Shown here in pieces: positions 40 through 25,364 of a stretch of DNA of 64,000 nt (its first letter is position 1; every line of letters begins with the position of its first letter). The DNA is taken from positions 81,675 to 145,674 of the forward strand of contig NZ_CP081121.1 in assembly GCF_025141935.1 (NCBI RefSeq), in the 5' to 3' direction. Origin of the DNA: Sulfitobacter sp. S190. GTDB lineage: Bacteria; Pseudomonadota; Alphaproteobacteria; Rhodobacterales; Rhodobacteraceae. The position numbers and the translations under genes are program-made. The notes beneath the pieces are model-generated. The model was not told where the DNA came from, made no database searches, and saw only the letters and a list, made by a program, of their open reading frames with translations.

Positions 40-1407
40 TTAGCAGCGCCCAGCGATATACCCCAGAACGACCGCAGCAAGCAGCCCATTTCCCGAAAGA
101 TATCCGCTGTCGCCGGCACCGGACACACCGCAGGCCGCGCCGCCGGCTGCGTAGAGGTTGGCGAAGGTGTCGCCGTCCGTGTGCCGGACCTTGGCCGTTT
201 CGGGGTCGATGACCAACCCGCCCTGAGTATGGAACAGGGCGCCGGTCACCTTCACGGCCACAAGGTCCGTACGCGATGGTGCGGTATCCCATGATCTACC
301 AAGGGCATCTGTACCACTTGCCGGAATTTGATCGAAAGTGCGGGTGAGCGCGTCGGCCTCCAGCCCGAGCATTTTTGCAAGGGACGGAATGTCGGGGGCA
401 TGGACCAGCGCATTTTGCTTTTCGGCTTCTTTGAAGTCCGCGAATTGCCGCGCGACATCGGCGATACGCGTGTCGAAGATCGTCCATGCGACGCCTTCGG
501 GTTGGCGCAGCACGTGGCGGGCGGCTTCGGAGTAGCCTTGGCTTTCGTTCCAGAACCGTTCGCCGTTGGTATTCACCTGAAATCCGCCCTGTGTGATGAC
601 GGCCCAAGTGATGAGAATACCGTGAGGATAGGCGACGTTCCCGTGCCCCTGATATGCGCCGAGATGCTTCAACTGCGCGCCCGCAGTCTGGCCCCAGGCG
701 ATCGCGTCACCGGTATTGCCATCGTGGCCGAACCAAAGCGCATCCGCGATATCGGGCATGTGGTCCCTGACCATCGTCCGGTTGCCGCCAAACCCGTTGC
801 AAGCCAACACCACACGCTGCGTCCGCACGGTTTCGGCTGCGCCATCGGGTCGCGCCAGTGTTACACCATCCACGGTTTTGCCGTCCAGATGCAGGGTTAC
901 CGCCCGCCGGTTGCACACCAGCGGCACGCCAAGCGTATCAACACGCGCGCGCAATGCGTCGACCAACTCCGCGCCGGAGCGGGTGGGCAGACCGTGCATG
1001 CGTTTGTGTTGGTGCCCGGGGTAGTCAAAGTTATCGACGAGTGTGAAGGGCAGGCCGTGCGTATCGGCAAGCCATTCGATGACCCCGGCAGCACCATCAG
1101 CCAATACCCCAACCAATGCGGGGTCATTTTCGTGACTGGCCTTGTCCTGAATGTCCTGCGCGAAAATCTGTGCGGTATCTTCGATCCCGATGGCCCGCTG
1201 AAAACGGGTTCCTGCTGCCGGGATAAGACCGGCACTGAGCGCGGTAGAGCCGGTGGGAACGGCATCCGCTTCGACAATCAGAACGTCCTGTCCGGCCCCG
1301 TGGGCGCTCAGCCCGGCGACGAGGCCACAGGCGCCCGCGCCGATAATGAGTGTTTCGACCTCCAGATCATAACTGTCCAAAGGGGGGTGAATGTCAGGGC
1401 TTGCCAT
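40..1407 (-). CDS. FAD-dependent oxidoreductase, fumarate reductase flavoprotein/ketosteroid dehydrogenase type
   Basis: A 455-residue flavoprotein. The N-terminal dinucleotide-binding motif (VETLIIGAGACGLVAG, about residues 17-32) and the C-terminal FAD-binding segment (NLYAAGGAACGVSG...GYLSGNGLLAA) are those of the FAD_binding_2 family, which adds or removes hydrogens across C=C bonds next to carboxylates or ketones. There is no signal peptide or heme motif, so a cytoplasmic enzyme is expected. The ATG at 1407 is preferred to the TTG one codon earlier. It overlaps the end of the upstream lyase gene by 14 nt, so it is the last gene of the six-gene minus-strand operon. The substrate is unknown; a desaturase or ene-reductase for the carboxylate handled by this operon is inferred. 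Confidence 0.82.
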   Translation of the reverse strand: MASPDIHPPLDSYDLEVETLIIGAGACGLVAGLSAHGAGQDVLIVEADAVPTGSTALSAGLIPAAGTRFQRAIGIEDTAQIFAQDIQDKASHENDPALVGVLADGAAGVIEWLADTHGLPFTLVDNFDYPGHQHKRMHGLPTRSGAELVDALRARVDTLGVPLVCNRRAVTLHLDGKTVDGVTLARPDGAAETVRTQRVVLACNGFGGNRTMVRDHMPDIADALWFGHDGNTGDAIAWGQTAGAQLKHLGAYQGHGNVAYPHGILITWAVITQGGFQVNTNGERFWNESQGYSEAARHVLRQPEGVAWTIFDTRIADVARQFADFKEAEKQNALVHAPDIPSLAKMLGLEADALTRTFDQIPASGTDALGRSWDTAPSRTDLVAVKVTGALFHTQGGLVIDPETAKVRHTDGDTFANLYAAGGAACGVSGAGDSGYLSGNGLLAAVVLGYIAGRC

Positions 1408-2254
1408 CAAAACGTTGCCCCAGTTTGAGCATCTGCGGGGTGCCGATGGTCTCGTTCAGCGCATCAAAATCGAACATCCTTTCCTTGAACGGCGTATTTG
1501 TGCCGTGGTTTCGCAGGCTGCTGTAATAGTCTTTTGCGGTATGGGCGAGCGCCCGCACAATACCACCGGGAAAGACAGCGATATCGAAACCCATCGCCTG
1601 CAAGTCATCTGCCGACGACATGGGCGTGGCGCCCCCTTCGACCATATTGGCGAGCAGAGGTATCTGCGCGCCGAAGGTCTGTGGAATGCGCATCAATTCA
1701 TCGCGGTCACGCGGTGCTTCGATGAACAGAACGTCCGCGCCGGCGTCGATGTACCGGGCGGCGCGGTCCACGGCGGCATCGAACCCTTCAACGGCAACGG
1801 CGTCGGTGCGCGCAATGATCAGGGTGTCATGGGCGCGTGCATCGACCATCGCGGCGATTTTGCCGCACATCTCATTGGCCGGGATGAGCGATTTGTCCGA
1901 CAGATGACCACATTTCTTGGGGTATGTTTGATCTTCGACCTGAAGGGCGGCAGCACCGGCACGCTCGTAAACCCGCATTGTGCGCTGCGCGTTCAAGGCG
2001 TTCCCGAAGCCGGTGTCCGCGTCCATGATGACGGGCAGCGGAGAGCGATCCGCAATAAGCGCCATGGTCTCTGCCATTTCGGACGCCGTTGTCAGCCCAA
2101 TGTCCGGACGACCCAACCGGGTGTAGGCGACCGCGGCGCCGGAGAGATAGAGCGCCTCGAAACCCGCATCGGTGGCCAGCGCGGCGGTCAGCCCGTCATA
2201 GACGCCCGGCGCCAAAAGGATATCGGTCTGGGTAAGGCGTGTGCGCAAGTTCAT
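1394..2254 (-). CDS. Isocitrate lyase/PEP mutase family carboxylate lyase
   Basis: 286 residues with the beta-barrel features of the PEP mutase/isocitrate lyase superfamily: Mg-binding PVIMDADTGFGN (about residues 74-85) and the active-site loop KKCGH (113-117, Cys115). That loop motif marks true C-C lyases (2-methylisocitrate lyase, 2,3-dimethylmalate lyase, oxaloacetate hydrolase relatives) rather than phosphonate mutases. Family members cleave 2-hydroxy dicarboxylates to pyruvate or glyoxylate plus an acid. It starts with an ATGA overlap on the isochorismatase-like gene and is translationally coupled to the flavoprotein. With the LeuCD-type hydratase across the divergent promoter it resembles the last two steps of nicotinate fermentation (dimethylmaleate hydratase plus dimethylmalate lyase). 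The exact substrate is not shown by the sequence. Confidence 0.85.
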   Translation of the reverse strand: MNLRTRLTQTDILLAPGVYDGLTAALATDAGFEALYLSGAAVAYTRLGRPDIGLTTASEMAETMALIADRSPLPVIMDADTGFGNALNAQRTMRVYERAGAAALQVEDQTYPKKCGHLSDKSLIPANEMCGKIAAMVDARAHDTLIIARTDAVAVEGFDAAVDRAARYIDAGADVLFIEAPRDRDELMRIPQTFGAQIPLLANMVEGGATPMSSADDLQAMGFDIAVFPGGIVRALAHTAKDYYSSLRNHGTNTPFKERMFDFDALNETIGTPQMLKLGQRFDGKP

Positions 2255-2853
2255 GTGGCGTTTTCCAGCATCTGGGCCGCCTGCGTGCAGGTGGCAATTT
2301 TTGTGACGGTCCCCAGCGATGTAAGTGTCGCGTCATGCACCGCGCTGTCGAACGCGGCACAGCCGTCCGACAGCAAGACAGTGTGGATATTGCGCAGATG
2401 CGCGTCACGTACGGTGCTGGCAACGCCGCCGTTGGTGACGATGCCGCCGATGATGAGCGTATCGATCCCGACCGCACGCATGACGTAATCCAGCCGCGTC
2501 TGATAGAATGCGGAGTACGCGACCTTCTCGATTGTAAAATCTGCAGGCGCCAGTGTTTCAGTCAACGCATGTCCAAAGCTGCTAGGTGCGAAGTCACCTT
2601 TCTTCAGGAACGGTCGCAGCTTCTTGAGGTGATCCGCGATCAACGGCTCACCGTCACGACCGGCTATAAGGGTGAACTGGGCTGAGATATAGAAACCGCC
2701 TGCGTTGATCAGAGCGTCCTTCAACGGCAAAATCCGGTCTGGCAGGGCCGTGATTGCCGCAGAACCCTGATCCGCGCGGCCGTACGCGCCGTCAGGATGC
2801 AAAAAATCGTTCTGCAAGTCGATTGTCAGCAAAGCCGTTCGCTGCGGTATCAT
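2251..2853 (-). CDS. Isochorismatase-fold hydrolase lacking the usual catalytic cysteine
   Basis: A 200-residue protein of the isochorismatase-like/cysteine hydrolase family. The conserved Asp (IDLQNDF, Asp12) and Lys (Lys110, before VAYSAF) are present. The strand that carries the nucleophile in amidase members (TNxCVxST) reads TNGGVAST, so Gly143 stands where the Cys is expected; the DNA reads GGC GGC there. Cys-containing relatives such as maleamate amidohydrolase and N-carbamoylsarcosine amidase hydrolyse amides, whereas EntB-type isochorismatases use Gly at this place. Start ATG overlaps the HyuA stop (ATGA). A hydrolytic role in the ring-opening operon is inferred; amidase activity is doubtful without Cys. 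Confidence 0.82.
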   Translation of the reverse strand: MIPQRTALLTIDLQNDFLHPDGAYGRADQGSAAITALPDRILPLKDALINAGGFYISAQFTLIAGRDGEPLIADHLKKLRPFLKKGDFAPSSFGHALTETLAPADFTIEKVAYSAFYQTRLDYVMRAVGIDTLIIGGIVTNGGVASTVRDAHLRNIHTVLLSDGCAAFDSAVHDATLTSLGTVTKIATCTQAAQMLENAT

Positions 2854-4910
2854 GTCTGCGCCCTTTCGATGATCGTATTGCCGTATTCATCCACGCGCCC
2901 GGTAAGGCCGGGTTCGATCAGAACTGTCGTATCGGGTTGTTCGAGTATCGCGGGGCCGGGAATTTTTGCGCCGACGGGCAGCTCAAGCCTTTTGTAGAGA
3001 CGGGTATCGTGCCACTCTCCGGCGAAATAGACCGGTCGCATGCCATTGAACGCCGCCTCGACAGAGCCGCCTTCGGGCGTCAGCGTTTCGAGATCGAAAC
3101 GTGGTCTTTTGCCGGTCACCGCGCTGCGTAGATTCATCACGCGCCGTGTGCCGTTCTCCAGCAGTCTTCCGTAAGTCGCGAGATAAGCCGCATCAAATGC
3201 GGCCTTTATGTCATCGACCGTGGGGGCCGCGACCTTGCCGTCCGTCACCGTTACCTCGAGCGGAACGCTGACCGTATGGGTCTGACCCAGATAGGCCATG
3301 TCCAGCGTGAAGCCGATGTCGCGACTTTCAAAACGGGTCTGCGCCGCGTCAAGCATCGCCATGCCGTCGTCGACGTGCGACTGCATATGCGTCCCGAGCA
3401 TTGATGTATCCATACCATCGACCATTGCGTTCACGGTTTGCACAAAATCCTGCCGCATATCCGCAATGACGCAGCCCATCGCCGACGTCACGCCGGGATA
3501 GCGCGGCACAATCGCGCGGGCGAGACCCACATCATCGAGCATGGCGCCCGCATGCAGCGCGCCGCCTCCGCCGAAGGGCATGAACGCAAACCGCTTAGGG
3601 TCGAACCCCCGCTCGATGGAGACAAGTCGCAAGGCCCCGGCCATGCGGCTGTTCGCGACGCGCAAGATTGCTTCGGCCGCGTGCAGTGGGTCCAGATTGA
3701 GCGGCGCGCCCACATGCTCCGCGATCGCTTGACGGGCCGCTTCGACGTCCAGCTTTTCAAGTTTCCCGCCGATGGGATTGTCCGGGTCGATCCGGCCCAG
3801 AACGACATTCGCATCCGTCACTGTTGGACGGGTATTGCCCATACCGTACGCCACCGGCCCCGGCGTGGAACCCGCACTTTCGGGACCGATATTGAGCAGC
3901 CCGCCTTTGTCCACCCATGCAATCGAACCTCCGCCGGCACCGATCGTCGTGATCTCGATCATCGGGGTCCGCACGACCATACCAAAATCGATCGATGTTT
4001 GCGGGCTGAGCATGCTGTCGCCGCCGGCAATGAGCGAGACGTCGAATGACGTGCCGCCCATGTCCCCGGTGATGACATCGGGGAACCCGGCCGCCTGCGC
4101 AATATATCCTGCCGCGATGACACCTGCGGCGGGGCCGGACAATGCGGTCCGGATCGGCAACCGTGCTGCGGTGGCCACATCCATGACACCACCATTGGAC
4201 TGTACGATCATGAACTCGCCCGCAAAGCCGCCTGATTTCAGCGCTTGCTCAAGCCTGCTGAGATAGCCGGACACTTCCGGTTGCAGGTAGGCATTCAATG
4301 CCGTGGTGCTGAAGCGTTCGAACTCACGGATTTCGGGCAGGATTTCGGAGGAACACGACACATGCGCGTTCGGCCACATGCCGCGCACCGTTTCGACCGC
4401 GCGTCTTTCGTTCTCGGGGTTGGCGTAAGCGTTGGCGAAGAGGACGGCTACGGCTTCGCAGCCCTCATCGCGCAACTGTTGCGCTTGTGCACGGACGGCG
4501 TCGAGGTCGACAGGTTGCCGGATCGTGCCGTCCGCCAGCGTGCGCTCTGGCACCTCCAACCTCAGGGATCGCGCAACAACCGGATCAAAATTACCGCGAA
4601 GGCCCCACGTGCGGGGGCGATCGCGACGGCGCATTTCGAGCACATCGCGCAGTCCCATCGTCGTGATGACCCCGATCCGCGCCCCCTTGCGTTCCAGCAG
4701 CGCATTCGTGCCAGCAGTCGTGCCGTGCACCACCACCGACACATTCGACAGGTCGTCCACGCTCGCGCCGATGCCTTCGAGAAATCCGGCGGATTGGTCC
4801 GGGCGGCTGGTTGGGACCTTGGCCACACGTGCGGTACCGGTTTCTTCGTCCAGAACAAAAATGTCGGTGAACGTGCCGCCGACGTCCACCCCGATCATGT
4901 TGCCTTTCAT
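2850..4910 (-). CDS. hyuA: Hydantoinase/oxoprolinase A subunit (ATP-binding)
   Basis: 686 residues of the HyuA/5-oxoprolinase alpha family. The N-terminus has the ASKHA nucleotide-binding motif IGVDVGGTFTDIFVLD, followed by the hydantoinase A core (GDMGGTSFDVSLIAGG; GAGGGSIAWVD). Together with HyuB such enzymes open cyclic amides (N-methylhydantoin, 5-oxoproline) using ATP; related acetone or acetophenone carboxylases use the same fold. I chose ATG 4910 over the longer start at 4928 because AGGAGG lies about 7 nt upstream and it forms an ATGA overlap with the hyuB stop. It sits in the middle of a tightly coupled operon, so the substrate is probably a ring-containing intermediate of that pathway. 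Confidence 0.9.
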   Translation of the reverse strand: MKGNMIGVDVGGTFTDIFVLDEETGTARVAKVPTSRPDQSAGFLEGIGASVDDLSNVSVVVHGTTAGTNALLERKGARIGVITTMGLRDVLEMRRRDRPRTWGLRGNFDPVVARSLRLEVPERTLADGTIRQPVDLDAVRAQAQQLRDEGCEAVAVLFANAYANPENERRAVETVRGMWPNAHVSCSSEILPEIREFERFSTTALNAYLQPEVSGYLSRLEQALKSGGFAGEFMIVQSNGGVMDVATAARLPIRTALSGPAAGVIAAGYIAQAAGFPDVITGDMGGTSFDVSLIAGGDSMLSPQTSIDFGMVVRTPMIEITTIGAGGGSIAWVDKGGLLNIGPESAGSTPGPVAYGMGNTRPTVTDANVVLGRIDPDNPIGGKLEKLDVEAARQAIAEHVGAPLNLDPLHAAEAILRVANSRMAGALRLVSIERGFDPKRFAFMPFGGGGALHAGAMLDDVGLARAIVPRYPGVTSAMGCVIADMRQDFVQTVNAMVDGMDTSMLGTHMQSHVDDGMAMLDAAQTRFESRDIGFTLDMAYLGQTHTVSVPLEVTVTDGKVAAPTVDDIKAAFDAAYLATYGRLLENGTRRVMNLRSAVTGKRPRFDLETLTPEGGSVEAAFNGMRPVYFAGEWHDTRLYKRLELPVGAKIPGPAILEQPDTTVLIEPGLTGRVDEYGNTIIERAQT

Positions 4911-6604
4911 TCCGAAACCTCCTGCCACGCTTTGCCATAGGTTTCATCCGCGGTGTCGGCACTCACAAAACCATCGGACACGTCGCGCGCGATCGCGTCG
5001 GCGGCACGGTCCTGTGGCGGTCCATATCCGCCTCCGCCGGGTGTATCGAGCCGCACCGATTGCCCCTGTTCGAGCCTGATGCCGACCATTTTCGACGCCA
5101 TTGGCGGTACATGCCAGCCGTCTGTCTGCTCATAGGAAAAGACGTTCAGCGCAGCCTCATGGCCGCCTGCGACCCCCTGCGGGGCATAGCGACCGCGCTC
5201 GCCGAACAAAAAGGCCTTTGCGCCATTACCTTCCAGCACTTCGATCTCGTAGCGCGCGCCCATGCCTCCGCGGTGTTTGCCTGCGCCCGCACTATCGGGG
5301 CGCAGGGCCCATTCGCGGAACATGATGGGGTATGCGGCTTCGAGTATTTCCAGCGGAGGGATTGTCGCTGTCGATATGGGCGCGTTGCCATGGTTCAGCC
5401 CGTCCCCTTCGGACGAGCCGCCGTGACCTCCGCCATAAAAGCTGAACATGACCCACGGGCTCCCGTTGGCACGTGTGCCCGAAATCGACAGCGCGTTGAT
5501 CGTGCCGTAGGCGTTTGCGACGACCCGTTCGGGTGCTGCATGGGCTGCTGCGGAAAATATCACGTCGATCATGCGCAATATTGTCTCTGTATAGCCGCCA
5601 ACGGGGGCGGGAAACGGCGCTGACAGCAGTGATCCTTCGGGAATTTTTACCGATACAGGCCGCATCACACCGGCGTTGGCAGGCAGCGCGGGAAAGATGT
5701 GTTTGATCGCCACATAGGCCGTGGCAACCGCGGTGGGCAACGCGATGTTGACCGGACCCGCGCACCGCGGCGCAGTTCCCTCGAAGTCGAGTGTCATCGT
5801 GTCACCGGAAATCTCGAGCGCCACTTTGATCGGCAGGGCACTGTCGGTGATGCCGTCGTTGTCGAGATAGTCCAATGCTTCCCATCGCCCGTCCGGCAGC
5901 GCCCGAAGCTCTGCCTGCATCAGCATTTCCGCGCGGTCCTGCAAAGCGTCGAGAGCATGGCGTACGGTGTCGGGGCCATATTCCCCGAGCAGCTCATCCA
6001 TCCGCCTAACGCCAAGATCAAGCGCGCCAAGTTGCCCGTTCAAGTCTCCTTGGGCCGATTGTGGCAAGCGCGTGTTGCGCATCAGAATGTCGATGATGTC
6101 GGTCTGCATCTTCCCCGCCTTGGCCAAGCGGACGGGCGGCAGGACAAACGCCTCCTGAAACGCATCCGTTGCGGCAGGGTTGTAGTTGCCCGGAACCGCA
6201 CCGCCGACATCGTGCCAGTGCCCGACGGAGGCAAGATAGCAAAACAACTTTCCCTTGTGAAAATAGGGCCTGACAAGGCGCATGTCGCTCAGATGGGTGC
6301 CACCGAGATGCGCATCGTTGAAGATATAGATGTCACCGTCTTCCAGATCCCCGTTCTGTGCTGCCTTGTCGATCACGGCCTTCACGGCAAACGACATGAC
6401 GCCGACAAAGATAGGAAGACCCGATTTCCCCTGCACAAGCGTATCGCCGCTGTTTGCGTGGTAAAGACCGTGAGAAGCATCATGTGCCTCCGCTATGATC
6501 GGATTGAATGCGGCGCGGAAAAGCGTTGCATCCATTTCGTCGGCAATCTGCTCCATCCTTCCCGCAAGCACGGCCAGGGTAATGGGGTCGATGTCGGTGG
6601 TCAT
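4907..6604 (-). CDS. hyuB: Hydantoinase/oxoprolinase B subunit
   Basis: 565 residues, typical full length for the HyuB family. Typical segments are visible: DPITLAVLAGRMEQIADEM at the N-terminus, the AHDASHGLYH stretch, FNDAHLGGTHLSDM in the first quarter, and the C-terminal glycine-rich RLDTPGGGGYGPPQDR. It pairs with HyuA to form an ATP-dependent ring-opening amidohydrolase. The start overlaps the stop of the tautomerase/SnoaL gene by 4 nt and the stop overlaps hyuA by 4 nt, indicating translational coupling. The substrate cannot be read from sequence. No hydantoin racemase or carbamoylase sits next to it, so a classical hydantoin route is not favoured. Confidence 0.9.
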   Translation of the reverse strand: MTTDIDPITLAVLAGRMEQIADEMDATLFRAAFNPIIAEAHDASHGLYHANSGDTLVQGKSGLPIFVGVMSFAVKAVIDKAAQNGDLEDGDIYIFNDAHLGGTHLSDMRLVRPYFHKGKLFCYLASVGHWHDVGGAVPGNYNPAATDAFQEAFVLPPVRLAKAGKMQTDIIDILMRNTRLPQSAQGDLNGQLGALDLGVRRMDELLGEYGPDTVRHALDALQDRAEMLMQAELRALPDGRWEALDYLDNDGITDSALPIKVALEISGDTMTLDFEGTAPRCAGPVNIALPTAVATAYVAIKHIFPALPANAGVMRPVSVKIPEGSLLSAPFPAPVGGYTETILRMIDVIFSAAAHAAPERVVANAYGTINALSISGTRANGSPWVMFSFYGGGHGGSSEGDGLNHGNAPISTATIPPLEILEAAYPIMFREWALRPDSAGAGKHRGGMGARYEIEVLEGNGAKAFLFGERGRYAPQGVAGGHEAALNVFSYEQTDGWHVPPMASKMVGIRLEQGQSVRLDTPGGGGYGPPQDRAADAIARDVSDGFVSADTADETYGKAWQEVSE

Positions 6605-7167
6605 GATGTCCCTCGGGTTTCGGCGATGTCGTTCCAGACGTCCTGGCGGGTCAAAAGCCCCTGCATGACTTCAAAGCGGTCGATAAAACGGATGCCATCA
6701 AAGGCCGTGCCATCGGGCCATTCGCCGGATAATGTGCCGCGGCAATAGACGATCGCGTGTTCGTCTTGCGAGGGCAGGCATTCGAACGCGGTGTAGGATT
6801 TCGTGACAAATCGGTAGCGCGGCGCCGCCCAGGCAACCAGCGCATCCAATGACGTCATGGGGTCCGTGCCGGGAAATGTCATCGTGAAACCCGCGCCCAA
6901 CATGTTGCGGGCGCTTTCAAGATCGCGCGCCTCCATCGCATCGAGGAATGCGCGTACTGTTTGTGCGGGGTCCGGAAGGGCGGGCGCCGGCGTGCGGTGC
7001 GTCCCGCCCCGCATGTAGGCACTGGCGGACACTTCGTGGAGCAATACCGTCACCGATTCGGCGGGGGCAGGCACGACGATCCTCACGGCATCCGTCAGCG
7101 CAGCGCACAGCCGCGATTTGGCCGCATCGTCGTACCCCTCGATCAGATGGCATTCGATCACTGGCAT
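6601..7167 (-). CDS. Tautomerase-like domain fused to a SnoaL/NTF2-like domain
   Basis: 188 residues in two parts. Residues 1-62 (MPVIECHLIEGYDDAAKSRL...) look like a 4-oxalocrotonate tautomerase subunit with the N-terminal catalytic Pro2 exposed after Met removal. From about residue 68, PDPAQTVRAFLDAMEARDLESARNML, is the opening helix of a SnoaL/NTF2-like alpha+beta fold, and the C-terminal half fits that small cone-shaped fold. Both are small enzyme folds acting on enol or keto acids. First gene of the operon; GGGAG lies 7-9 nt before ATG. A role in isomerising an enol/keto intermediate is inferred. The fusion is less usual than either domain alone. Confidence 0.72.
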   Translation of the reverse strand: MPVIECHLIEGYDDAAKSRLCAALTDAVRIVVPAPAESVTVLLHEVSASAYMRGGTHRTPAPALPDPAQTVRAFLDAMEARDLESARNMLGAGFTMTFPGTDPMTSLDALVAWAAPRYRFVTKSYTAFECLPSQDEHAIVYCRGTLSGEWPDGTAFDGIRFIDRFEVMQGLLTRQDVWNDIAETRGTS

Positions 7168-7308
7168 GTCGTCGCTCCCATGATGACATGTATTTCTATA
7201 GTACAGGTTTATGCGATTTTATAGATCAGAAATGCCGATATCTGTGAGATAGATTTCTTGCATTTGCATATTCAATCGCTAGGCTTTGGAGCAAGAGCGA
7301 GGATTCGA
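7168..7308. promoter_or_regulatory. Divergent promoter region with possible GntR operator
   Basis: AT-rich spacer between the minus-strand degradation operon and the plus-strand GntR gene. It contains TGTA-N9-TACA at 7189-7205, an imperfect dyad resembling operators of the HutC branch of GntR regulators. It lies about 20 nt upstream of the tautomerase ATG, where repression would block the operon. The assignment rests on position and symmetry only. Confidence 0.35.
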
Positions 7309-8124
7309 ATGGTGCAAGGCCCCGATAATAAGGGACGTAGCAGCCTTCCAGAGGGAGGCAAGGCGCGTCGCGTTTATCTGCATCTGCATGAAGATATCAC
7401 CCGCGGCAGCTATGCCGAAGGCGCTGTGCTGCCGGGTGAGCAGAAACTCTCGGTACAGTTTGATGTGTCGCGCGTGACCATCAGGCGCGCTTTGGATGCA
7501 CTTGAGGACGAAGGCCTGATACGGCGTAGCGCGGGATCTGGCACCACGGTTTGCGCGGCGCCTGACGCACCCTCGGTGGCGGCGGATTTCACAACGCTGA
7601 TGCCGCAGGTCGTTCAGATGGGGTACGACACGACCGTGCGGCTGCTTTCGTTCGGGTATGGCCCGCCCCCGGCCGCTGTTGCGCGCGAAATGCAGCAAAC
7701 GTCAGATGCAGTTATGCAGCGTGCGGTGCGCCTGCGGTTGGTCGAAGAGCAGGCGTTCTCGCATCTCACGACCTATGTGCCCGAAGATATCGCGCGCAAC
7801 TACAGCGAGGCAGAGCTCGCCACAGAACCTTTGTTCATCCTGCTGGAACGGTCGGGCGTTGTGGTGCAAACCGCTCACCAAAGCGTCAGTGCCACGCTGG
7901 CATCCCCGGATGTCGCGGCGCATCTGGGCCTGAGTGTCGGCGCTCCCTTGCTGTCGCTGGACCGCGTGGTTCGGGATGCGCAGGGCAGGGGGGTCGAATA
8001 TTTGTCCGCTCTCTACCGTCCCGATATGTTCAGGCTTGAGATGACGCTCGGTCGTGTCGGTGCAGGAGAGGCGCGACATTGGGAGCCGATCATTCAGCCC
8101 GACCCGGCGCAGGCCGCCGAATGA
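7309..8124 (+). CDS. GntR family (HutC subfamily) transcriptional regulator
   Basis: 271 residues. The N-terminal winged helix is clear (VYLHLHEDITRGSYAEGAVLPGEQKL...VSRVTIRRALDALEDEGLIRR), followed by a UTRA effector-binding domain typical of the HutC branch (MGYDTTVRLLSFGYGPPP...PLLSLDRVVRDAQGRGVEYLSALYRPDMFRLEM). ATG 7309 with GAGG 6 nt upstream is preferred to TTG 7258. It is divergent to the hyuBA operon and overlaps the LeuC-like gene by ATGA, so it is probably the local repressor, relieved by a pathway carboxylate, controlling both directions. Confidence 0.9.
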   Translation: MVQGPDNKGRSSLPEGGKARRVYLHLHEDITRGSYAEGAVLPGEQKLSVQFDVSRVTIRRALDALEDEGLIRRSAGSGTTVCAAPDAPSVAADFTTLMPQVVQMGYDTTVRLLSFGYGPPPAAVAREMQQTSDAVMQRAVRLRLVEEQAFSHLTTYVPEDIARNYSEAELATEPLFILLERSGVVVQTAHQSVSATLASPDVAAHLGLSVGAPLLSLDRVVRDAQGRGVEYLSALYRPDMFRLEMTLGRVGAGEARHWEPIIQPDPAQAAE

Positions 8125-9509
8125 AGACGCTTCTCGACAAACTGTGGGATGCCCACGAAATCACCCGCCGCGATGATGGCACGTCGCTGCTGTGGGTCGA
8201 CCGGCACCTTGTGCACGAAGGATCGCACCACGCTTTCGCAAAGATCTCAGCTCGTGGTGCATCCGTCGCCCATCCCGATCTGACATTTGCGGTCGTGGAC
8301 CACTATGCGCCGACACGTGCGGGCACCGTGGCCGCAGATGTCCGGCGCATGATTGACACACTGGGCGACAATGCCCGAAGGGCAGGAATACGTCTTTATG
8401 GCTTGCGTGATCCCGGACAGGGGATCGTGCACGTGATCGGACCGGAGCAAGGGATCACGCTGCCGGGTCTTTTGATAAATTGCGGTGACAGTCATACCTC
8501 CACACATGGCGCATTTGGCGCGTTGGCGTTCGGCGTTGGCGCGACCGAGGTTGCCCATATTCTTGCGACACAGACAATTTGGCAAAAGCGGCCGAAATCC
8601 ATGCAGCTGTGGTTCGACGGCACTTTGACAGAAGGCGTTACAGCCAAGGATCTTGCGCTGCACTGGATTGCGAAGCTGGGAAGTGACGGTGCCCGCGGAC
8701 ATGCAATCGAATACGCGGGTCCGGCAATTCGCAATCTCAGCATGGAAGGGCGGCTGACCCTGTGCAACCTGTCGATCGAAGGGGGCGGGCGCTTCGGGAT
8801 GATCGCGCCTGACGAGGCGACTTTCACCTATCTCAAGGGACGGCCTTTCGCGCCGGCCGGCGACGCGTGGGACAAAGCCGTTGAGGACTGGCGGCAGCTT
8901 TGTTCCGACGACACTGCCGAATTTGACAGCCAGATACGTTTCGACGCGTCCGACGTGGCCCCGACAGTGACGTGGGGTACGTCACCGGAAGAGGCGGCCC
9001 CCATCACTGACCAAGTTCCCAGACCGGATGATCTTGGCCCGAACAAAGCGGAACACGCCCGTGCTTCGCTTGCCTACATGGGTCTCGAACCGGGTGCGCG
9101 ATTGGTCGATGTGCCGGTGGACGAAGTGTTCATCGGGTCCTGCACGAACGGTCGGATTGAGGACTTGCGCATGGCCGCCAAGGTGCTGGCAGGTCGGAAG
9201 GCGCGTGTTCCGGGACTGGTATCGCCGGGCTCGGCACAGGTGAAAAAGCAAGCGGAGCAAGAGGGGCTTGCGACTATCTTTTCCCAGGCAGGTCTGGAAT
9301 GGGCCGATGCGGGATGCTCGATGTGTGTCGGAATGAACGGGGATATCGTGGGCGCTGGAAAACGTTGCGCATCATCGACAAATCGCAACTTCAAAGGTCG
9401 GCAGGGTCGTGGCGCCCGTACCCATCTCATGAGCGCGGCGATGGTCGCTGCCGCTGCTGTCAAAGGGCATCTCGCCGATGTGCGCCCCTTGCTGGAGGGG
9501 CGGGAATGA
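8121..9509 (+). CDS. LeuC-like aconitase-family hydratase, large subunit
   Basis: 462 residues of the isopropylmalate isomerase/homoaconitase large-subunit family. The signature GDSHTSTHGAFGALAFGVG and the three [4Fe-4S] ligands are present (GSCTNGR, and CSMC in WADAGCSMCVGMNGD). The ATG at 8121 overlaps the GntR stop, and it overlaps the small-subunit gene by 4 nt. There is no leuB or leuA nearby, the regulator is GntR, and a TRAP transporter follows, so this is likely a catabolic hydratase (citraconate, maleate or dimethylmaleate type) rather than the leucine biosynthetic enzyme. It should produce the 2-hydroxy acid that the divergent KKCGH lyase can cleave. Confidence 0.88.
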   Translation: MKTLLDKLWDAHEITRRDDGTSLLWVDRHLVHEGSHHAFAKISARGASVAHPDLTFAVVDHYAPTRAGTVAADVRRMIDTLGDNARRAGIRLYGLRDPGQGIVHVIGPEQGITLPGLLINCGDSHTSTHGAFGALAFGVGATEVAHILATQTIWQKRPKSMQLWFDGTLTEGVTAKDLALHWIAKLGSDGARGHAIEYAGPAIRNLSMEGRLTLCNLSIEGGGRFGMIAPDEATFTYLKGRPFAPAGDAWDKAVEDWRQLCSDDTAEFDSQIRFDASDVAPTVTWGTSPEEAAPITDQVPRPDDLGPNKAEHARASLAYMGLEPGARLVDVPVDEVFIGSCTNGRIEDLRMAAKVLAGRKARVPGLVSPGSAQVKKQAEQEGLATIFSQAGLEWADAGCSMCVGMNGDIVGAGKRCASSTNRNFKGRQGRGARTHLMSAAMVAAAAVKGHLADVRPLLEGRE

Positions 9510-10123
9510 GCGGTTGGCGTACGCTTTCGGGAACAGCCGTGGCATTGCCACAGGCCAACATCGATACCGATCAGTTGATCCCTGCGCGTTTCATGTCGCA
9601 ACCGCGTGCCAACGGCTACGGGAGCTTTTTGTTGCATGATGCGCGGCAAGACGATCCGGACCACCCCTTGAACAGACACCTCGATGCGAAGGTTCTCGTG
9701 ACACGCCGGAATTTCGGCACCGGATCAAGCAGGGAGGCCGCGGTCTATGCGCTGTCGGATTTCGGGATCCGCGCTGTGCTGGCGCCGAGCTTTGGCGACA
9801 TATTTGCTGCCAATGCAGTCAACAACGGTGTTCTGCCTGCGAAAGTGGACGCGCAGATCATCGAAAACACCATCAACCGAATGGGGGAAGGCGCGCACGT
9901 GGTCACCCTTTCTCTTGACGCTTGTATGGCCACAATCGGAAATGCCGACATCCCCTTCACGCTCGATCCGATGTGGCAACGCAAGCTGATGAACGGCTGG
10001 GACGACATTGATCTGACACAGCAGCACGCCCCCGAAATCGCAGAATTTCGCGCAGCCCGCTGGGCCGCGCACCCTTGGGCAATGCCCAGACAGAAGACCC
10101 CGCACAGCGCGCGGCAAGATTGA
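9506..10123 (+). CDS. LeuD-like aconitase-family hydratase, small (swivel) subunit
   Basis: 205 residues, the length of LeuD proteins. Key features are ANIDTDQLIPARFM near the N-terminus and NFGTGSSREAAVYALSDFGIRAVLAPSFGDIFAANAVNNG, the swivel-domain substrate loop. It starts with an ATGA overlap on the large subunit. The enzyme would be the heterodimeric partner that closes over the Fe-S cluster. The catabolic assignment follows from operon context, not from a residue-level specificity signature. Confidence 0.88.
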   Translation: MSGWRTLSGTAVALPQANIDTDQLIPARFMSQPRANGYGSFLLHDARQDDPDHPLNRHLDAKVLVTRRNFGTGSSREAAVYALSDFGIRAVLAPSFGDIFAANAVNNGVLPAKVDAQIIENTINRMGEGAHVVTLSLDACMATIGNADIPFTLDPMWQRKLMNGWDDIDLTQQHAPEIAEFRAARWAAHPWAMPRQKTPHSARQD

Positions 10124-10143
10124 AAACCAAAGGGAGAGATCGA

Positions 10144-11142
10144 ATGAAACATGCAATAATCGGCGGAATTTTTGCCAGTACCGCACTGGCGGGGCAAGTG
10201 ATGGCCCAAGATACCGTGACTGCGGTGCACGCTTTTCCGGAATCGCTGATCTATACGAAGTCGTTTCTCGAATTCGTCAAAAGAGTGAATGCCGCAGGCG
10301 AGGGTATCGTGAAAATCGAGGTGCGCGGCGGACCCGAAGCCATCGGTATGTTCCAGCAACCGGACGCCGTTCGGAACGGTGTGGTCGACATGGTCTATAC
10401 GCCCGGCAGCTTTTATGCCGGATCCCTGCCTGAAAAAGACGCGCTCGTGACATCCAACATCGTTGCGGCAGAAGCCCGCGCGAACGGCGGCATCGAGCTC
10501 ATCGACCAAATCCATCAGGAAAAGATGGGTGTGAAATACCTTGGCTGGTTCGACAGCGGCGTTTGCTACAATCTCTGGACCCGCGACGAACCGACGCTCG
10601 ACGATGGCGGCAATCTGGATGTATCCGGTCTGAAGCTGCGCGGTAATGCCGTCTATAACGCGTTTTTCACGGATTATCTGGGCGCTCAGGTGATCGATCT
10701 GCCAACAACCGAGGTCTATTCCGCCCTCGAGCGCGGGGTTGTCGATGCCACGGGGTGGACCCAGATCGGTCTGATCGACCTCAAGTGGAATGAGTTTCTC
10801 AATTACCGGATCGAGCCGTGCTTTTTCTCAACGGACCTCGGGGTCATCATGAACCTCGACAAATGGAACAGCCTGTCCGATGCCGCGCGCAATGTCATTC
10901 AGGACGTGGCGATTGCGCATGAGGAAGAGTCTGCAAGCAAGCTTGGTGCCAAGCGGGACGAGGATTTTGCCGCGCTCGAAGAGGCCGGGATGCAGGTCGT
11001 CACATTGGAAGGCGAAGCGGCGGAAGCCTATCTGGGTGCAGCCGTTGAAAAGACATGGGACCGGATGAAAGGTCTGATGGAAGAAAGTCCTCAGGGGGCT
11101 GACAACTACGACGAGCTGATCGAACTGTTCTACGAAAAATAA
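10144..11142 (+). CDS. dctP: TRAP transporter solute-binding protein (DctP family)
   Basis: 332 residues beginning with a Sec signal peptide (MKHAIIGGIFASTALAGQVMAQ, cleavage after AQ). The mature part has the DctP pattern, including LKLRGNAVYNAF and GVVDATGWTQIGLIDLKWNEF, the region holding the Arg that binds substrate carboxylates. The ATG at 10144, preceded by GGGAGAG, is chosen over an in-frame start 69 nt earlier that would bury the signal peptide. It follows the LeuD-like gene by 20 nt and is separated from dctQ by a strong hairpin. Likely ligand: the organic acid degraded by this cluster. Confidence 0.9.
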   Translation: MKHAIIGGIFASTALAGQVMAQDTVTAVHAFPESLIYTKSFLEFVKRVNAAGEGIVKIEVRGGPEAIGMFQQPDAVRNGVVDMVYTPGSFYAGSLPEKDALVTSNIVAAEARANGGIELIDQIHQEKMGVKYLGWFDSGVCYNLWTRDEPTLDDGGNLDVSGLKLRGNAVYNAFFTDYLGAQVIDLPTTEVYSALERGVVDATGWTQIGLIDLKWNEFLNYRIEPCFFSTDLGVIMNLDKWNSLSDAARNVIQDVAIAHEEESASKLGAKRDEDFAALEEAGMQVVTLEGEAAEAYLGAAVEKTWDRMKGLMEESPQGADNYDELIELFYEK

Positions 11143-11152
11143 GACGATCAAT

Positions 11153-11179
11153 GCCGCGCCGGATAAAGTCTGGCGCGGC
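11153..11179 (+). repeat. GC-rich hairpin between dctP and dctQ
   Basis: Perfect 8-bp inverted repeat GCCGCGCC (11153-11160) and GGCGCGGC (11172-11179) with an 11-nt loop, 10 nt after the dctP stop. There is no T-tract after it, so it is more likely an mRNA-stabilising or processing element than a terminator. It would leave dctP mRNA in excess over the membrane subunits. Confidence 0.7.
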
Positions 11180-11197
11180 GCACTCAAGGGGCGTGTC

Positions 11198-11704
11198 ATG
11201 CAGGTGCTCGGGCAACTCTATCGCGGGTTTTTATACGCAATGGCAGGTATCGCAGGCGCGATGCTGGTCTGGCTTATGGTGTCTGTTGTCACATCCGTGA
11301 CGATGCGCAACCTTGGTCTGCAGCCTTTCGCGTGGCTTTTCACGTCATCGGAATATGCAATCCTTTACATGACGATGCTTGGCGCGCCTTGGTTGGTCCG
11401 TGAACGGGGTCATGTCCACATCGAACTGGTAACCGCCGCCCTGCCAGCGCACGCCAGACGCATTGTCAGCCGGAGCGTCGCGGCCATTTGCGTTGCCATC
11501 TGTGCGTTGCTTGCGTGGAAAGGTGCGGAACTGATGCTAACCAATATCGCCCGCAACGATCTGGATGTGCGGGCCTATTACTTTCCCAAATGGGTTTTAA
11601 CGGCGGCATTCCCCGTCTGTTTTGGTCTCATGGCGGTGGAGTTTTCACGGTATGTGTTCGGCAAAACGCTGATGCATTCGGGCGAAGCGGGAATACACGA
11701 ATAA
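11198..11704 (+). CDS. dctQ: TRAP transporter small membrane subunit (DctQ)
   Basis: 168 residues with four hydrophobic segments (about 8-30, 44-62, 88-107, 129-148) and the DctQ-type stretch APWLVRERGHVHIEL after the second. It is the small integral membrane component that works with DctM in Na+-driven uptake. It lies 55 nt after dctP, across a hairpin, and its stop overlaps the dctM start by one base. Confidence 0.9.
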   Translation: MQVLGQLYRGFLYAMAGIAGAMLVWLMVSVVTSVTMRNLGLQPFAWLFTSSEYAILYMTMLGAPWLVRERGHVHIELVTAALPAHARRIVSRSVAAICVAICALLAWKGAELMLTNIARNDLDVRAYYFPKWVLTAAFPVCFGLMAVEFSRYVFGKTLMHSGEAGIHE

Positions 11705-13011
11705 TGGAATGGTTCGAGGCGCTTGGCCTGCTGATCGGGTCCATTCTGGTGCTCATGGCGATCGGGATGCCCGTCGCGCTTGCCTTTCTGGCGGCAAATA
11801 TCATCGGTGCGTGGTTCTTTATGGGCGGGGCACGCGGCGTGACGCTGATGCTCAACAACGGCTTTGGCAGTCTGACCAATTTTGCGCTCGTGCCGATCCC
11901 GCTTTTCCTCCTGATGGGTGAAATCTTTTTCCATACCGGCCTCGGCAAACGCATGTTCAATGCAATTGACAAGCTGCTTGGCCGCCTGCCGGGCCGCTTG
12001 TCCTACGTAACGGTTCTTGGCGGCACGGCGTTTTCCACCTTGTCGGGGTCCTCGATGGGATCGACGGCCCTTCTGGGCAGTCTCATGGTGCCGGAAATGA
12101 CGCAGCGCGGGTATAAAAAGCATATGTCGATCGGGCCGATTTTGGGGACGGGCGGGTTGGCCATCATCATTCCCCCATCGGCGCTCGCCGTGCTTCTGGC
12201 GACGCTTGCGCGTATCGATGTCGGTGCGTTGTTGATCGCGGGCATTGTGCCGGGCTTGATCCTTGCGTCTTTCTACATCGCGACAATCTATGTGCAGACG
12301 CGTATCGATCCCGACGCAGCACCCGCTTACGACGTCGAAACATTGAGCGTCAGTGCGAAATTCGGCCTGCTGTTCCGTGACATTCTGCCAATGCTGTCGG
12401 TGATGGTGCTGATCGTGATCGGTATGGTCGCGGGGCTCATAACACCGTCCGAAGCGGCGGCTTTCGGTGCCTTGGGCGTCTTGATCCTCGCGCTGGTTTT
12501 CCGGTGCCTGAGCTGGCAAGCGCTGCGAAAGTCCGTTGTCGGCGCTTTGCGGGTGACGCTCATGGCGTATCTGATTGTGTTCGGCTCTGCGACCTTCAGC
12601 CAGCTGCTCGCTTTCTCTGGCGCGTCCTCCGGGCTCATTCGCTGGGCGACGGCTTTCGATCTTGCCCCGATCGCGATGCTTCTGGTGATGTTTGGCGTTC
12701 TTTTGCTGCTCGGGATGTTCATGGAACAGATCTCCATGATGTTGCTGACGGTCCCGATCTTCTTTCCATTGGCGACGACGCTGGGTTTTGATCCCATCTG
12801 GTTTGGTCTCATCATTTTGCTGGCGCTCGAAATCAGCTTTACGACCCCTCCTTTCGGGCTACTTCTTTTTGTGATGAAGGGCGTTGCCCCCCGCGAGACG
12901 ACGATGCGAGATATCTATGGGTCGGCCATTCCGTATATGGCGTGCTCCATGCTGCTGGTGGCGCTGCTCATTGCGTTTCCGCAGATCGCGCTGTGGCTTC
13001 CCGGGTTGTAA
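11704..13011 (+). CDS. dctM: TRAP transporter large permease (DctM)
   Basis: 435 residues of very hydrophobic sequence with the DctM hallmarks: GMPVALAFLAANI near the N-terminus, the LSGSSMGSTALLGSLMVPEM motif, LGTGGLAIIIPPS, and the C-terminal TTPPFGLLLFVMKGVAP. It forms the transport channel of the TRAP system. ATG 11704 overlaps the dctQ stop; the longer upstream frame extension lies inside dctQ and is rejected. It ends the plus-strand operon GntR-leuCD-dctPQM. Confidence 0.92.
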   Translation: MEWFEALGLLIGSILVLMAIGMPVALAFLAANIIGAWFFMGGARGVTLMLNNGFGSLTNFALVPIPLFLLMGEIFFHTGLGKRMFNAIDKLLGRLPGRLSYVTVLGGTAFSTLSGSSMGSTALLGSLMVPEMTQRGYKKHMSIGPILGTGGLAIIIPPSALAVLLATLARIDVGALLIAGIVPGLILASFYIATIYVQTRIDPDAAPAYDVETLSVSAKFGLLFRDILPMLSVMVLIVIGMVAGLITPSEAAAFGALGVLILALVFRCLSWQALRKSVVGALRVTLMAYLIVFGSATFSQLLAFSGASSGLIRWATAFDLAPIAMLLVMFGVLLLLGMFMEQISMMLLTVPIFFPLATTLGFDPIWFGLIILLALEISFTTPPFGLLLFVMKGVAPRETTMRDIYGSAIPYMACSMLLVALLIAFPQIALWLPGL

Positions 13012-13886: not shown

Positions 13887-14822
13887 TCAGTACTCCACGG
13901 TGATCAGAACGGAATCTGTATAGACGCCGGCGCGCAAAGGTTGGCCCGCGAACAGCCGACCGTGGACTGTCATCGTTTGGTCATTGCCTGTACCGGTCGT
14001 TGCGACAGTCTGGCCGGGGGTCTGGCCCCAAGGCGTCGTAACCGAACCATTTAGATACAAACCATAGCGCAGCTGTTGGCTTGCGGGCCCGGTCATCCGT
14101 CGGTCCGTGGGTCCGCTGGCGCCAGCGCCCACTCCGTTGTCGAGCGACACGGTGTACCCCGTCCCTTGTGTGCAGCGGATGACGAAGCCGCCTGTGGCCG
14201 CGACTGTCGATGTCACGGCAGCGGCGGCCAGCGTCCCGAAATCGATGGCTCCAGCATCCACCTCGCAACTGGCGGCGACGTCTGCGGTGACGTCAAAGGC
14301 ATTGATTTGTCGCACCGTGCCAGGTTGGTTGCACGAATTTGTATTAAATTCGATATGGGCCTGCGCAGTGCCGGAAAACGTGGTGCTATAGGCGCCGGTA
14401 CCTGTGCCGACACCTGATGACGTAATATCGGCAAACACCGGCACATCGATCCTGCCAGTCCCTAGAACCGTAGGAACCCGCACAAATTCGCGATCCCACG
14501 TTCCGCCGGACGCGCCATTCCCGCCGGGGCGCAACTCGTAGGCGAGCGCTGCGGAATCCGCGCGGCGCATGAAACGGGGTGAAAAACCTGCACCGCTGCC
14601 GCCCGACCCGGACGCCAAAACGATGCAGACCCCGATGCTGCCAACACCGGTGCAATTGATGCTTAACGTGCCAGAAGTCTGGTTGCTTACCCCACTGCGC
14701 AGACTGACCGTGCCAAACACGATGTCACTCATGCTCGACGTACAATTAACAGACTGTGCCTGCGCCATGGGGGGCAGGGCTGTCGAAACGATCAGAAAGA
14801 GTATGAACAGCGTTATCCGCAT
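13887..14822 (-). CDS. Two-domain spore coat U (SCPU) protein, probable fimbrial tip adhesin
   Basis: 311 residues with a signal peptide (MRITLFILFLIVSTALPPMAQAQ) and two SCPU domains. The first begins SVNCTSSMSDIVFGTVSLRSG and the second around ADVAASCEVDAGAIDFGTLAAAAV; each ends in the family-style TVTV(H)GRL...G.Y.D.V.ITV.Y strand. In Csu-type archaic pili the last operon gene is a two-domain tip adhesin (CsuE), which fits this size and position. ATG 14822 overlaps the usher stop by 10 nt. The longer form to 14876 lacks a leading signal peptide. Confidence 0.82.
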   Translation of the reverse strand: MRITLFILFLIVSTALPPMAQAQSVNCTSSMSDIVFGTVSLRSGVSNQTSGTLSINCTGVGSIGVCIVLASGSGGSGAGFSPRFMRRADSAALAYELRPGGNGASGGTWDREFVRVPTVLGTGRIDVPVFADITSSGVGTGTGAYSTTFSGTAQAHIEFNTNSCNQPGTVRQINAFDVTADVAASCEVDAGAIDFGTLAAAAVTSTVAATGGFVIRCTQGTGYTVSLDNGVGAGASGPTDRRMTGPASQQLRYGLYLNGSVTTPWGQTPGQTVATTGTGNDQTMTVHGRLFAGQPLRAGVYTDSVLITVEY

Positions 14823-18069: not shown

Positions 18070-18318
18070 TTCTTGCTCCACACTTCTGTCCGGTCGCATC
18101 GAGAGTTACTGCCGATGTCTTAAGAACAAATGAAGTTTTACACAGAGAGTGGAGGGTGGCCTTGGACGGCGAAAAGGACGGAAATTCGTCGCCACCTATG
18201 GAAAAATTATCAAAAGTCTGACGTATTTTCTGACAATTTCCTCAGGCGAATTTCTATTCCCGTAACCAATTTCAGGCCAGATCAGCACAGAGAATCTTGA
18301 CCGTTCGGAGTGCAGATT
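18070..18318. promoter_or_regulatory. Divergent intergenic region between fimbrial operon and Hint protein gene
   Basis: About 250 bp of relatively AT-rich sequence that must hold promoters for both the fimbrial operon and the Hint-domain gene. I see no clear operator dyad or RNA element in it. Confidence 0.3.
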
Positions 18319-21300: not shown

Positions 21301-21525
21301 GGTTGCGCAACCGAAAGTTTTCACGCAGCGGATACAGGTATGTCTGCCGTTTCGGCGAAAGCGCGCGAGGAAATCTTCGCGATCTTCCCGGAACTGCGAT
21401 GGAACTTCGGTGGCCACGGAGCAACAGCACGTATGTGCCTAACGGCACGAGAAGCGCGTCTTCTGTCGTCGCAGGGCGATGTCGCAAATCACAATTCCCG
21501 ATACCTGTCCGCGTGCGGGGATTGA
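18319..21525 (+). CDS. Large secreted Ca-binding repeat protein with C-terminal Hint domain
   Basis: About 1068 residues, very acidic. After an N-terminal beta-rich region come thrombospondin type-3-like Asp repeats ([56 protein letters not shown], roughly 190-400), then two RTX nonapeptide blocks ([18 protein letters not shown] and [20 protein letters not shown]). It ends in a Hint_2 domain starting [18 protein letters not shown] with the nucleophilic-type Cys near residue 867. There is no signal peptide; C-terminal or RTX-guided type I secretion is expected. GGAG at 18307-18310 fits TTG 18319 (8-nt spacer) better than GTG 18310. Hint domains self-cleave proteins; the role here is unknown. 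Confidence 0.85.
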
Positions 21526-25179: not shown

Positions 25180-25364
25180 GCGCGCCATCCTCTGCCTGAG
25201 CAAGGGTACTTAAGCTTCCTTGGTATGCGTCGCGGCCTCGTCAATGCTGTATCCATTAGAAATTATTTCTAACCATAACTGAAAGAAAATCTGGTATTTT
25301 TAAACCTGATCTATCGAGTATAAGGTGTCAACGGCTGTCGAAATGTAGAAAGAACCGCACAGAT

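Follow-up and report, generated by a model that had tools for sequence, protein, structure and literature searches.

The lower half of the methylcitrate cycle consists of PrpD, aconitase and PrpB, tricarballylate is used by way of TcuA, aconitase and isocitrate lyase, and the fermentation of nicotinate ends with the dimethylmaleate hydratase DmdAB and dimethylmalate lyase. The present analysis concerns a twelve-gene cassette of Sulfitobacter sp. S190, in which relatives of such enzymes stand together with a HyuAB pair of the ATP-dependent hydantoinase/oxoprolinase family. The window, i.e. the whole stretch of 64,000 nucleotides that was analysed, corresponds to positions 81,675 to 145,674 of contig NZ_CP081121.1 (G000:C2:81675-145674), on a replicon (C2) of 145,674 bp in a genome of 3.97 Mb.

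That the gene set is real, conserved and catabolic is concluded with high confidence. Its chemistry is proposed more tentatively, and at slightly less than an even chance the set would open a ring, convert it to a tricarboxylate and then cleave the latter to a 2-oxoacid and glutarate. A preliminary description of this DNA had read the cassette as a route for cyclic imides or substituted maleates; its catabolic character stood, and the class of substrate and the product of the lyase are revised here. The enzyme families are all known, while their combination, the fixed Cys-to-Gly change in one of them and the product proposed here were not met in the literature searched. If true, the scheme would assign a testable class of substrate and a testable product to a cassette that is patchily spread among marine, soil and plant-associated Proteobacteria; it would also provide a case of a fixed Cys-to-Gly change within an amidase-like fold, and a parallel of methylcitrate catabolism that is one carbon longer.

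Gene arrangement and recurrence

Six minus-strand genes diverged from a plus-strand GntR-LeuCD-DctPQM set, as had been described before and as was confirmed here from gene ends and starts read from the sequence. Four of the five minus-strand junctions were exact ATGA overlaps and the fifth, between the lyase and FAD genes, was an overlap of 14 bp; on the plus strand, GntR/LeuC and LeuC/LeuD were also joined by ATGA overlaps and DctQ/DctM by TAATG. Pfam families matched the names given to all twelve genes. The earlier list of six minus-strand genes was correct, but the sixth, coding for a TcuA-type FAD protein, had been left out of its title and scheme.

Scanning of contigs with the lyase yielded 413 pattern stretches and 199 relatives, and the analysis was continued with the best 80 loci; 55 of these were at least 20 kb long and are called full-length here. 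Genes were counted by similarity thresholds, and the set, picked by lyase similarity, is not a random sample. Conserved co-occurrence, which the preliminary description had expected of a genuine pathway, was found: 45 of the 55 full-length loci carried HyuA, HyuB, the isochorismatase-like hydrolase, LeuC, LeuD, GntR and the FAD gene together with the lyase relative. Taken singly, the hydrolase was present in 53, HyuA, HyuB and the FAD gene each in 52, LeuC and LeuD each in 51 and GntR in 49 of them. Neither HyuA or HyuB nor the FAD gene was over threshold in L075, L079 and L088, L079 having nevertheless a remote HyuAB pair; LeuC was below threshold in L054, L077, L078 and L081, the hydrolase in L078 and L081, and GntR in L031, L046, L071, L077, L078 and L081.

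Gene content was stable while gene orders differed between groups. The commonest order (37 loci, including Sulfitobacter) had LeuDC divergent from HyuB-HyuA-hydrolase-lyase-FAD, mostly with TRAP genes. Methylobacterium, Bosea, Neorhizobium, Roseomonas, Azospirillum and others displayed GntR-LivKHMGF-(PrpD-like)-lyase-HyuB-HyuA-hydrolase-FAD with LeuCD near, and a Paraburkholderia, a Variovorax and genomes of another class displayed LivHMGF-LeuCD-HyuB-HyuA-hydrolase followed by the lyase, the FAD gene being present or not. PrpD-like genes occurred in 20 of the 80 loci, and genes for Tct binding proteins were neighbours of cassette genes, or of a lyase relative standing alone, in L089, L094, L095, L096, L098 and L100. 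Since it recurred in other genera and classes, the gene set is more than a chance assembly; it was found in Alpha- and Betaproteobacteria and in metagenome-assembled genomes (MAGs) of Granulosicoccus, a gammaproteobacterium. As indicated by the hydrolase, its distribution was patchy: 8 of 398 genomes over the phylum and 30 of 149 in the family of the window (own genome included in both counts), 4 of 17 in the order of genome G618 and 4 of 300 in the order of genome G379. Lower modules without HyuAB and hydrolase (L093, L100) suggest a division of the cassette into an upper part that opens the ring and a lower part that handles the tricarboxylate.

Enzymes of the cassette

HyuA (2850..4910, minus strand; three Hydantoinase A domains in Pfam) and HyuB (4907..6604, minus strand; Pfam Hydantoinase_B) found their best NCBIfam matches in caprolactamase alpha and beta, with 512.1 and 312.6 bits under cut-offs of 1000 each. 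Their best PDB match was N-methylhydantoinase (459.7 and 265 bits, respectively), with 5-oxoprolinase second for HyuA. Ring opening by HyuAB, as already proposed, would be the natural reading of this family. The PDB matches would also suit the use of hydantoins or 5-oxoproline, whereby HyuAB would yield N-carbamoyl amino acids or glutamate, an amino-acid-type LeuCD would have joined by chance and the remaining genes would be passengers; racemase-family genes in a few variants agree with this. It is nevertheless considered improbable, the content being constant across many gene orders, a far-diverged LeuCD holding the same place in other lineages, and the hydrolase lacking the Cys expected of an N-carbamoyl amidase. 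Even less credit is given to a nitrogen-free substrate, from which HyuAB would build the tricarboxylate by carboxylation: the family does include acetone and acetophenone carboxylases, but caprolactamase models outscored acetophenone carboxylase models (512 vs 318 bits for HyuA, 313 vs 144 for HyuB) and the run was devoid of a further carboxylase subunit.

The hydrolase (2251..2853, minus strand; Pfam Isochorismatase) belonged to the isochorismatase-like fold and displayed its Asp and Lys (D12, K110), but Gly143 occupied the TNxC position of the nucleophilic Cys found in amidases of the same fold. The Cys of RutB aligned with Gly143, and Cys and Ser forms of RutB and TrtA matched at this position. 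All 75 aligned rows lacked the amidase Cys and kept the TNGGVAST motif, one fragment (L024:9737-9958) being excluded from the count; out of 17 rows from later loci, which are not all independent, 15 matched TNGGVAST, one matched GGV only and one (L095, 26 % identical) differed. The predicted structure had a pLDDT of 95.5, and VIA and Foldseek lists placed amidases slightly above true isochorismatases, an order that does not decide the reaction. In the absence of a Cys at Gly143, the simple half-amidase step of the preliminary description cannot be assumed, and a plain half-amidase role is doubted here. Replicon p1 of Burkholderia plantarii had a Cys-bearing isochorismatase-family gene on the strand opposite its module.

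Hydrolysis of an enamine would need no Cys, which suits a nicotinate-like pyridine route: a Mo hydroxylase and a 6-hydroxynicotinate reductase encoded left of the window would form 6-oxo-tetrahydronicotinate, HyuAB would open the lactam, the Cys-less hydrolase would take off the enamine nitrogen, and the route would end in glutarate. These genes were located left of the lyase, at a distance of about 4 to 11 kb, and the reductase was present in 22 of 30 family genomes with the hydrolase against 46 of 119 without it (149 genomes; Fisher p = 9e-4, uncorrected for genome size or relatedness). However, it was found in 15 of the 29 directly reached cassette genomes, near the family rate of 68 out of 149, and was over threshold in none of the 80 loci for the DNA covered; in Sulfitobacter pontiacus it was carried by plasmids of 175 to 178 kb and the cassette by larger ones. 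Such a route, which would moreover leave LeuCD and the lyase without a job, has in our judgement a slim chance, and on account of these counts and separate plasmids the two genes were kept only as a rival upper pathway.

The genes in question formed one run at L007:57-7147 (G000:C2 ~71756-78846). It comprised two AA_synth-type genes (one checked), a gene called hypothetical by NCBIfam that we take to be UPF0280-type, the reductase, named 6-hydroxynicotinate reductase by annotation in other records, and Mo/Fe-S and FAD subunits of xanthine-dehydrogenase type.

LeuC (8121..9509, plus strand), an aconitase-family hydratase subunit, and LeuD (9506..10123, plus strand; Pfam and NCBIfam leuD) exceeded the leuC and leuD cut-offs, with 615.5 against 560.25 and 143.3 against 116.25 bits. 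LeuC retained the three Cys of the iron-sulphur cluster, in motifs GSCTN and GCSMC. A second, higher-scoring LeuC (782 vs 615 bits) with its own LeuD was found elsewhere in the genome, on C1; the small subunit displayed GSSREA in the window and GSSREH in this biosynthetic copy. The window pair was not the only LeuCD of the cell and stood in a catabolic run, outside a leucine context. Leucine biosynthesis was rejected as its role because of the canonical pair present elsewhere; the pair of the window is LeuCD-like by family and, judging from its surroundings, its role probably differs from leucine synthesis. Hydratases of L092, L093 and L130 were only 36-37 % identical to the window LeuC. They exceeded the subfamily cut-offs of the homoaconitate hydratase family (406-422 against 385.7 bits) and of LeuD/DmdB (143-152 against 108.95 bits).

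The lyase (1394..2254, minus strand; Pfam PEP_mutase/ICL) displayed a KKCGH loop at residues 113-117 and, for the DxD-type metal site, DADTGFG at 78, as members of the isocitrate lyase/PEP-mutase superfamily do; motif variation was examined over 81 rows. It scored 290.9 bits with NCBIfam prpB, under the equivalog cut-off of 354.4. In the PDB, 2-methylisocitrate lyases reached 196.1 bits, petal death protein 177.2 and dimethylmalate lyase (3fa3) 174.9. A Pro common to the lyase and PrpB may hint at specificity and is suggestive only. Hydration followed by KKCGH-type cleavage, as earlier put forward, is supported.

The FAD-dependent dehydrogenase of the fumarate-reductase/TcuA superfamily (40..1407, minus strand; Pfam FAD_binding_2, ATG start at 1407) attained 135.6 bits with the TcuA model, whose cut-off is 369. 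Its Tyr (QGYSEAA) stood at the position of the catalytic Arg of fumarate reductases, as in a PGAP-called TcuA; the aligned partner with this Tyr was an archaeal protein above the TcuA cut-off, the gene of which adjoined a lyase relative. The Tyr at this catalytic position led to a fumarate reductase role being set aside. Database records labelled parts of the cassette as 3-isopropylmalate dehydratase, cysteine hydrolase and oxaloacetate decarboxylase.

The last minus-strand gene (6601..7167; Pfam Tautomerase and SnoaL_2) encoded a fusion of a 4-OT-type tautomerase domain, in which Pro follows Met, with a SnoaL-like domain. Residue 2 was Pro in 36 of 37 aligned rows, the remaining row being a gap. 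The regulator on the plus strand (7309..8124; Pfam GntR and UTRA) was assumed to start at 7309, a TTG at 7258 being possible. It is followed, beyond LeuCD, by the TRAP solute-binding protein DctP (10144..11142) and the small and large membrane subunits DctQ (11198..11704) and DctM (11704..13011), all on the plus strand and each recognized by its Pfam family. The substrate could not be read from the transporter because TRAP, LIV and Tct systems alternate among relatives.

Glutarate-type genes, candidate substrates and neighbouring genes

Glutarate-type genes, i.e. glutaryl-CoA dehydrogenase (GCDH) and/or a succinate-glutarate-type CoA-transferase, lay within the gene run in four lineages. Plasmid pTM2 of Tistrella mobilis displayed GntR-HyuB-(HyuA)-hydrolase-GCDH-CoA-transferase-LeuC-LeuD, HyuA being located by tblastn and the two glutarate-type genes being annotated in the record as acyl-CoA dehydrogenase and CaiB/BaiF; a second Tistrella genome (L122) repeated this order. 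A Paracoccaceae MAG (L035) had lyase-GCDH-CoA-transferase and no FAD gene. Genome G618 (L124) displayed overlapping genes in the order HyuB-HyuA-hydrolase-CoA-transferase-LeuC-LeuD, without GCDH. Replicon p1 of Burkholderia plantarii carried GntR-LeuC-LeuD-FAD-lyase-porin-EtfB-EtfA-GCDH-CoA-transferase on a single strand, with transposase genes further out. Within the 80 loci, the pair of L035 adjoined the cassette and a GCDH of L054 lay at the edge; the latter (other strand, far end) and a weak opposite-strand CoA-transferase match in L069 were not regarded as belonging to the cassette. L119 was not counted beside L090, being taken as the same Tistrella plasmid, and L115 was likewise not counted beside L059.

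Two of the acyl-CoA dehydrogenases were compared with the PDB, where solved GCDHs reached up to 735 bits for L093 and 598 for L035. Entry 4w9u, named acyl-CoA dehydrogenase only, reached 584 and 690 bits, respectively, and apart from these no differently named entry exceeded 237 bits with either protein. The CoA-transferases of L035, L090 and L093 had succinate-glutarate CoA-transferase as best model (528-542 bits).

Retro-aldol lyases of this family convert HOOC-C(OH)(R1)-CH(R2)-COOH into R1-CO-COOH and R2-CH2-COOH. With glutarate as product, R2 would therefore be CH2CH2COOH and the lyase substrate homoisocitrate or an alkyl homologue; glutarate-type genes inside some cassettes thus make a 2-carboxyethyl substituent more likely than a methyl group and point to a pathway of tricarboxylates. 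The Tyr shared by the FAD protein with TcuA, the homoaconitase-family hydratases, the Tct binding proteins and the PrpD-like genes of variants also count for tricarboxylates.

In the proposed scheme, the TRAP system (LIV or Tct in relatives) would import an acidic N-heterocycle, either a lactam or a cyclic imide with a propionate side chain, the ring of which would be opened by HyuAB at the expense of ATP. The Cys-less hydrolase would then remove the nitrogen through Asp/Lys acid-base catalysis without an acyl-enzyme, the substrate's own cis-carboxylate possibly serving as nucleophile. Where needed, the TcuA-like FAD enzyme would desaturate a saturated tricarboxylate; LeuCD would add water to the resulting cis-homoaconitate-like acid, and from the homoisocitrate-like acid so formed the PrpB-like lyase would release glutarate and a 2-oxoacid (pyruvate if methyl-substituted, otherwise glyoxylate). 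Glutarate would proceed to glutaryl-CoA and crotonyl-CoA, and the whole would amount to the lower half of methylcitrate or tricarballylate catabolism with one more CH2. The tautomerase/SnoaL protein, possibly a double-bond isomerase, is the least certain member.

The substrates named in the preliminary description were smaller. A small cyclic imide or substituted maleate, such as citraconimide or dimethylmaleimide, would be opened by HyuAB and the hydrolase, hydrated by a LeuCD acting as citraconase or dimethylmaleate hydratase, and split by a dimethylmalate-type lyase into pyruvate and propionate. Dimethylmalate lyase and petal death protein do belong to the lyase family, and the small subunit in L092, L093 and L130 is of the LeuD/DmdB type. 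On the other hand, the product genes seen in the run are of the glutarate type, which speaks against the propionate-type product, and 2-methylisocitrate lyases outscored dimethylmalate lyase; no propionate gene was named in the annotated cassette runs except MmgE/PrpD-like ones, although no dedicated propionate search was made. Citraconate and dimethylmaleate, for which family membership is the support found, are accordingly less likely than had been proposed, and this small-imide route is rather unlikely.

Several observations weigh against the tricarboxylate scheme itself. Over thresholds, 78 of the 80 loci had no glutarate gene in the DNA covered, and none of the cassette enzymes was above an equivalog cut-off for its proposed reaction. 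The CoA-transferases of L035, L090 and L093 remained under their family cut-off of 750; relatives of that of L124 adjoined gabT/gabD-type genes (at 64 % identity) or, at 59 %, a 3-oxoadipyl-CoA thiolase, so that C4-C6 diacids are possible. The homoaconitate-type hydratases of L092, L093 and L130 scored higher (520-531 bits) in a general aconitase/isopropylmalate model. Parts of the set also occurred separately: L075, L079 and L088 kept lyase, hydrolase and LeuCD without adjoining HyuAB, lyase relatives stood without the rest of the cassette in L094, L098 and L099, LeuC relatives (58-59 %) were outside any cassette in L120, L123 and L125, and in L131 the hydrolase was accompanied by genes for an FAD protein and a Tct binding protein, HyuAB, LeuCD and lyase being absent over 20 kb. 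Finally, the tautomerase/SnoaL, PrpD-like and racemase-like genes are left unaccounted for by the scheme. In L121, a LeuC relative (58-59 %) stood beside a lyase 44 % like that of the window.

Hematinic acid, an imide with methyl and propionate arms, is a speculative candidate substrate. Opened and deaminated, such an imide would give exactly 2-methyl-cis-homoaconitate and hence fits the tricarboxylate skeleton; the tetrapyrrole origin offered as a guess in the preliminary description is thereby compatible with the revised substrate class. The cassette would then be a tetrapyrrole mono-imide route, a reading put forward with considerable reserve, in which hematinic acid and its dihydro form would lead to 2-methylhomoisocitrate and on to pyruvate and glutarate. 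Heme, bilins and chlorophyll would supply hematinic acid, and the reduced d-ring of chlorophyll the dihydro form, so that the end fragments of chlorophyll and heme would have a genetically encoded route. Hematinic acid was reported as the commonest oxidation product of hemin in one study, in which senescent barley leaves are given as a further source and its formation by ChuS, a heme protein of E. coli, is mentioned (PMC10343206). Another report found it in amounts like those of other chlorophyll fragments, states that simple maleimides were not detected, and cites lake sediments in connection with it (PMC7318184). According to the same report, chlorophylls except Chl c have one d-ring double bond hydrogenated (PMC7318184), and the FAD enzyme would therefore have a job on the dihydro form. 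The titles and abstract openings found in searches of the open-licence PMC literature contained neither a bacterial hematinic-acid pathway nor this gene set, which is not proof of absence. Should the hematinic-acid reading hold, it would fill in one step of what becomes of chlorophyll, reported to be made and degraded on a scale of 10^12 kg a year (PMC7318184).

Some variants differed in their accompanying enzymes. Plasmid 2 of Variovorax sp. RA8 (L095:7315-17289) carried an LLM flavin monooxygenase, SDR, a Cys-less isochorismatase-like gene, lyase, LeuCD, RibBA, flavin reductase, TctC and GntR, possibly a flavin-dependent ring-opening module replacing HyuAB. An FAD_binding_3 monooxygenase and an arylmalonate-decarboxylase/racemase-fold protein were encoded near lyase, hydrolase and LeuCD in L075, L079 and L082, HyuAB being absent or apart in the first two. 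Asp/Glu-racemase-family gene pairs were located near lyase/FAD genes in L054, L068, L074, L091 and L101, all but L054 also having a tautomerase gene.

On the other side of the window's cassette, a chaperone-usher type surface fibre locus (13887-17116, minus strand), with a spore-coat-U-domain protein and an outer membrane usher, adjoined it. A protein of 1071 residues with RTX calcium-binding repeats and a Hint domain was encoded at 18310-21525 (plus strand). An aconitase X (AcnX) gene (22405-23637, minus strand), accompanied by an FAD-linked oxidase gene (23743-25203), represented another aconitase-family enzyme less than 10 kb from the cassette.

Comparison with known systems

HyuAB shared the two-subunit architecture of caprolactamase CapAB and the ATP-dependent hydantoinases, and the former provided its best NCBIfam matches; HyuA reached about half of the CapA cut-off and HyuB about a third of that of CapB, both thus remaining under their models. 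NicF, RutB and BiuH, the maleamate, ureidoacrylate and biuret amidases, possess a nucleophilic Cys, in contrast to the Gly of the cassette hydrolase in 75 of 75 aligned rows.

With the end of nicotinate fermentation the cassette had in common a LeuCD-type hydratase and a lyase of the same superfamily, but its LeuD scored 71.1 bits, under the LeuD/DmdB cut-off of 108.95, and the product genes of variants pointed to glutarate. The resemblance to tricarballylate use resided in an FAD dehydrogenase of the TcuA superfamily with TcuA-like Tyr and in the archaeal TcuA that pairs with a neighbouring lyase relative; the FAD protein nevertheless stayed far below the TcuA cut-off (135.6 against 369 bits), and the cassette has a dedicated LeuCD. 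The lower half of the methylcitrate cycle also combines an aconitase-superfamily hydratase with a KKCGH/KRCGH-type lyase, that of the cassette being nearest to PrpB, and its PrpD has a counterpart in the PrpD-like genes of one quarter of the loci (20 of 80). In contrast to it, the cassette displayed LeuCD instead of AcnB/AcnD, had HyuAB and the Cys-less hydrolase in addition and, according to Pfam, no citrate synthase among its genes in the window, and its product would be glutarate rather than succinate.

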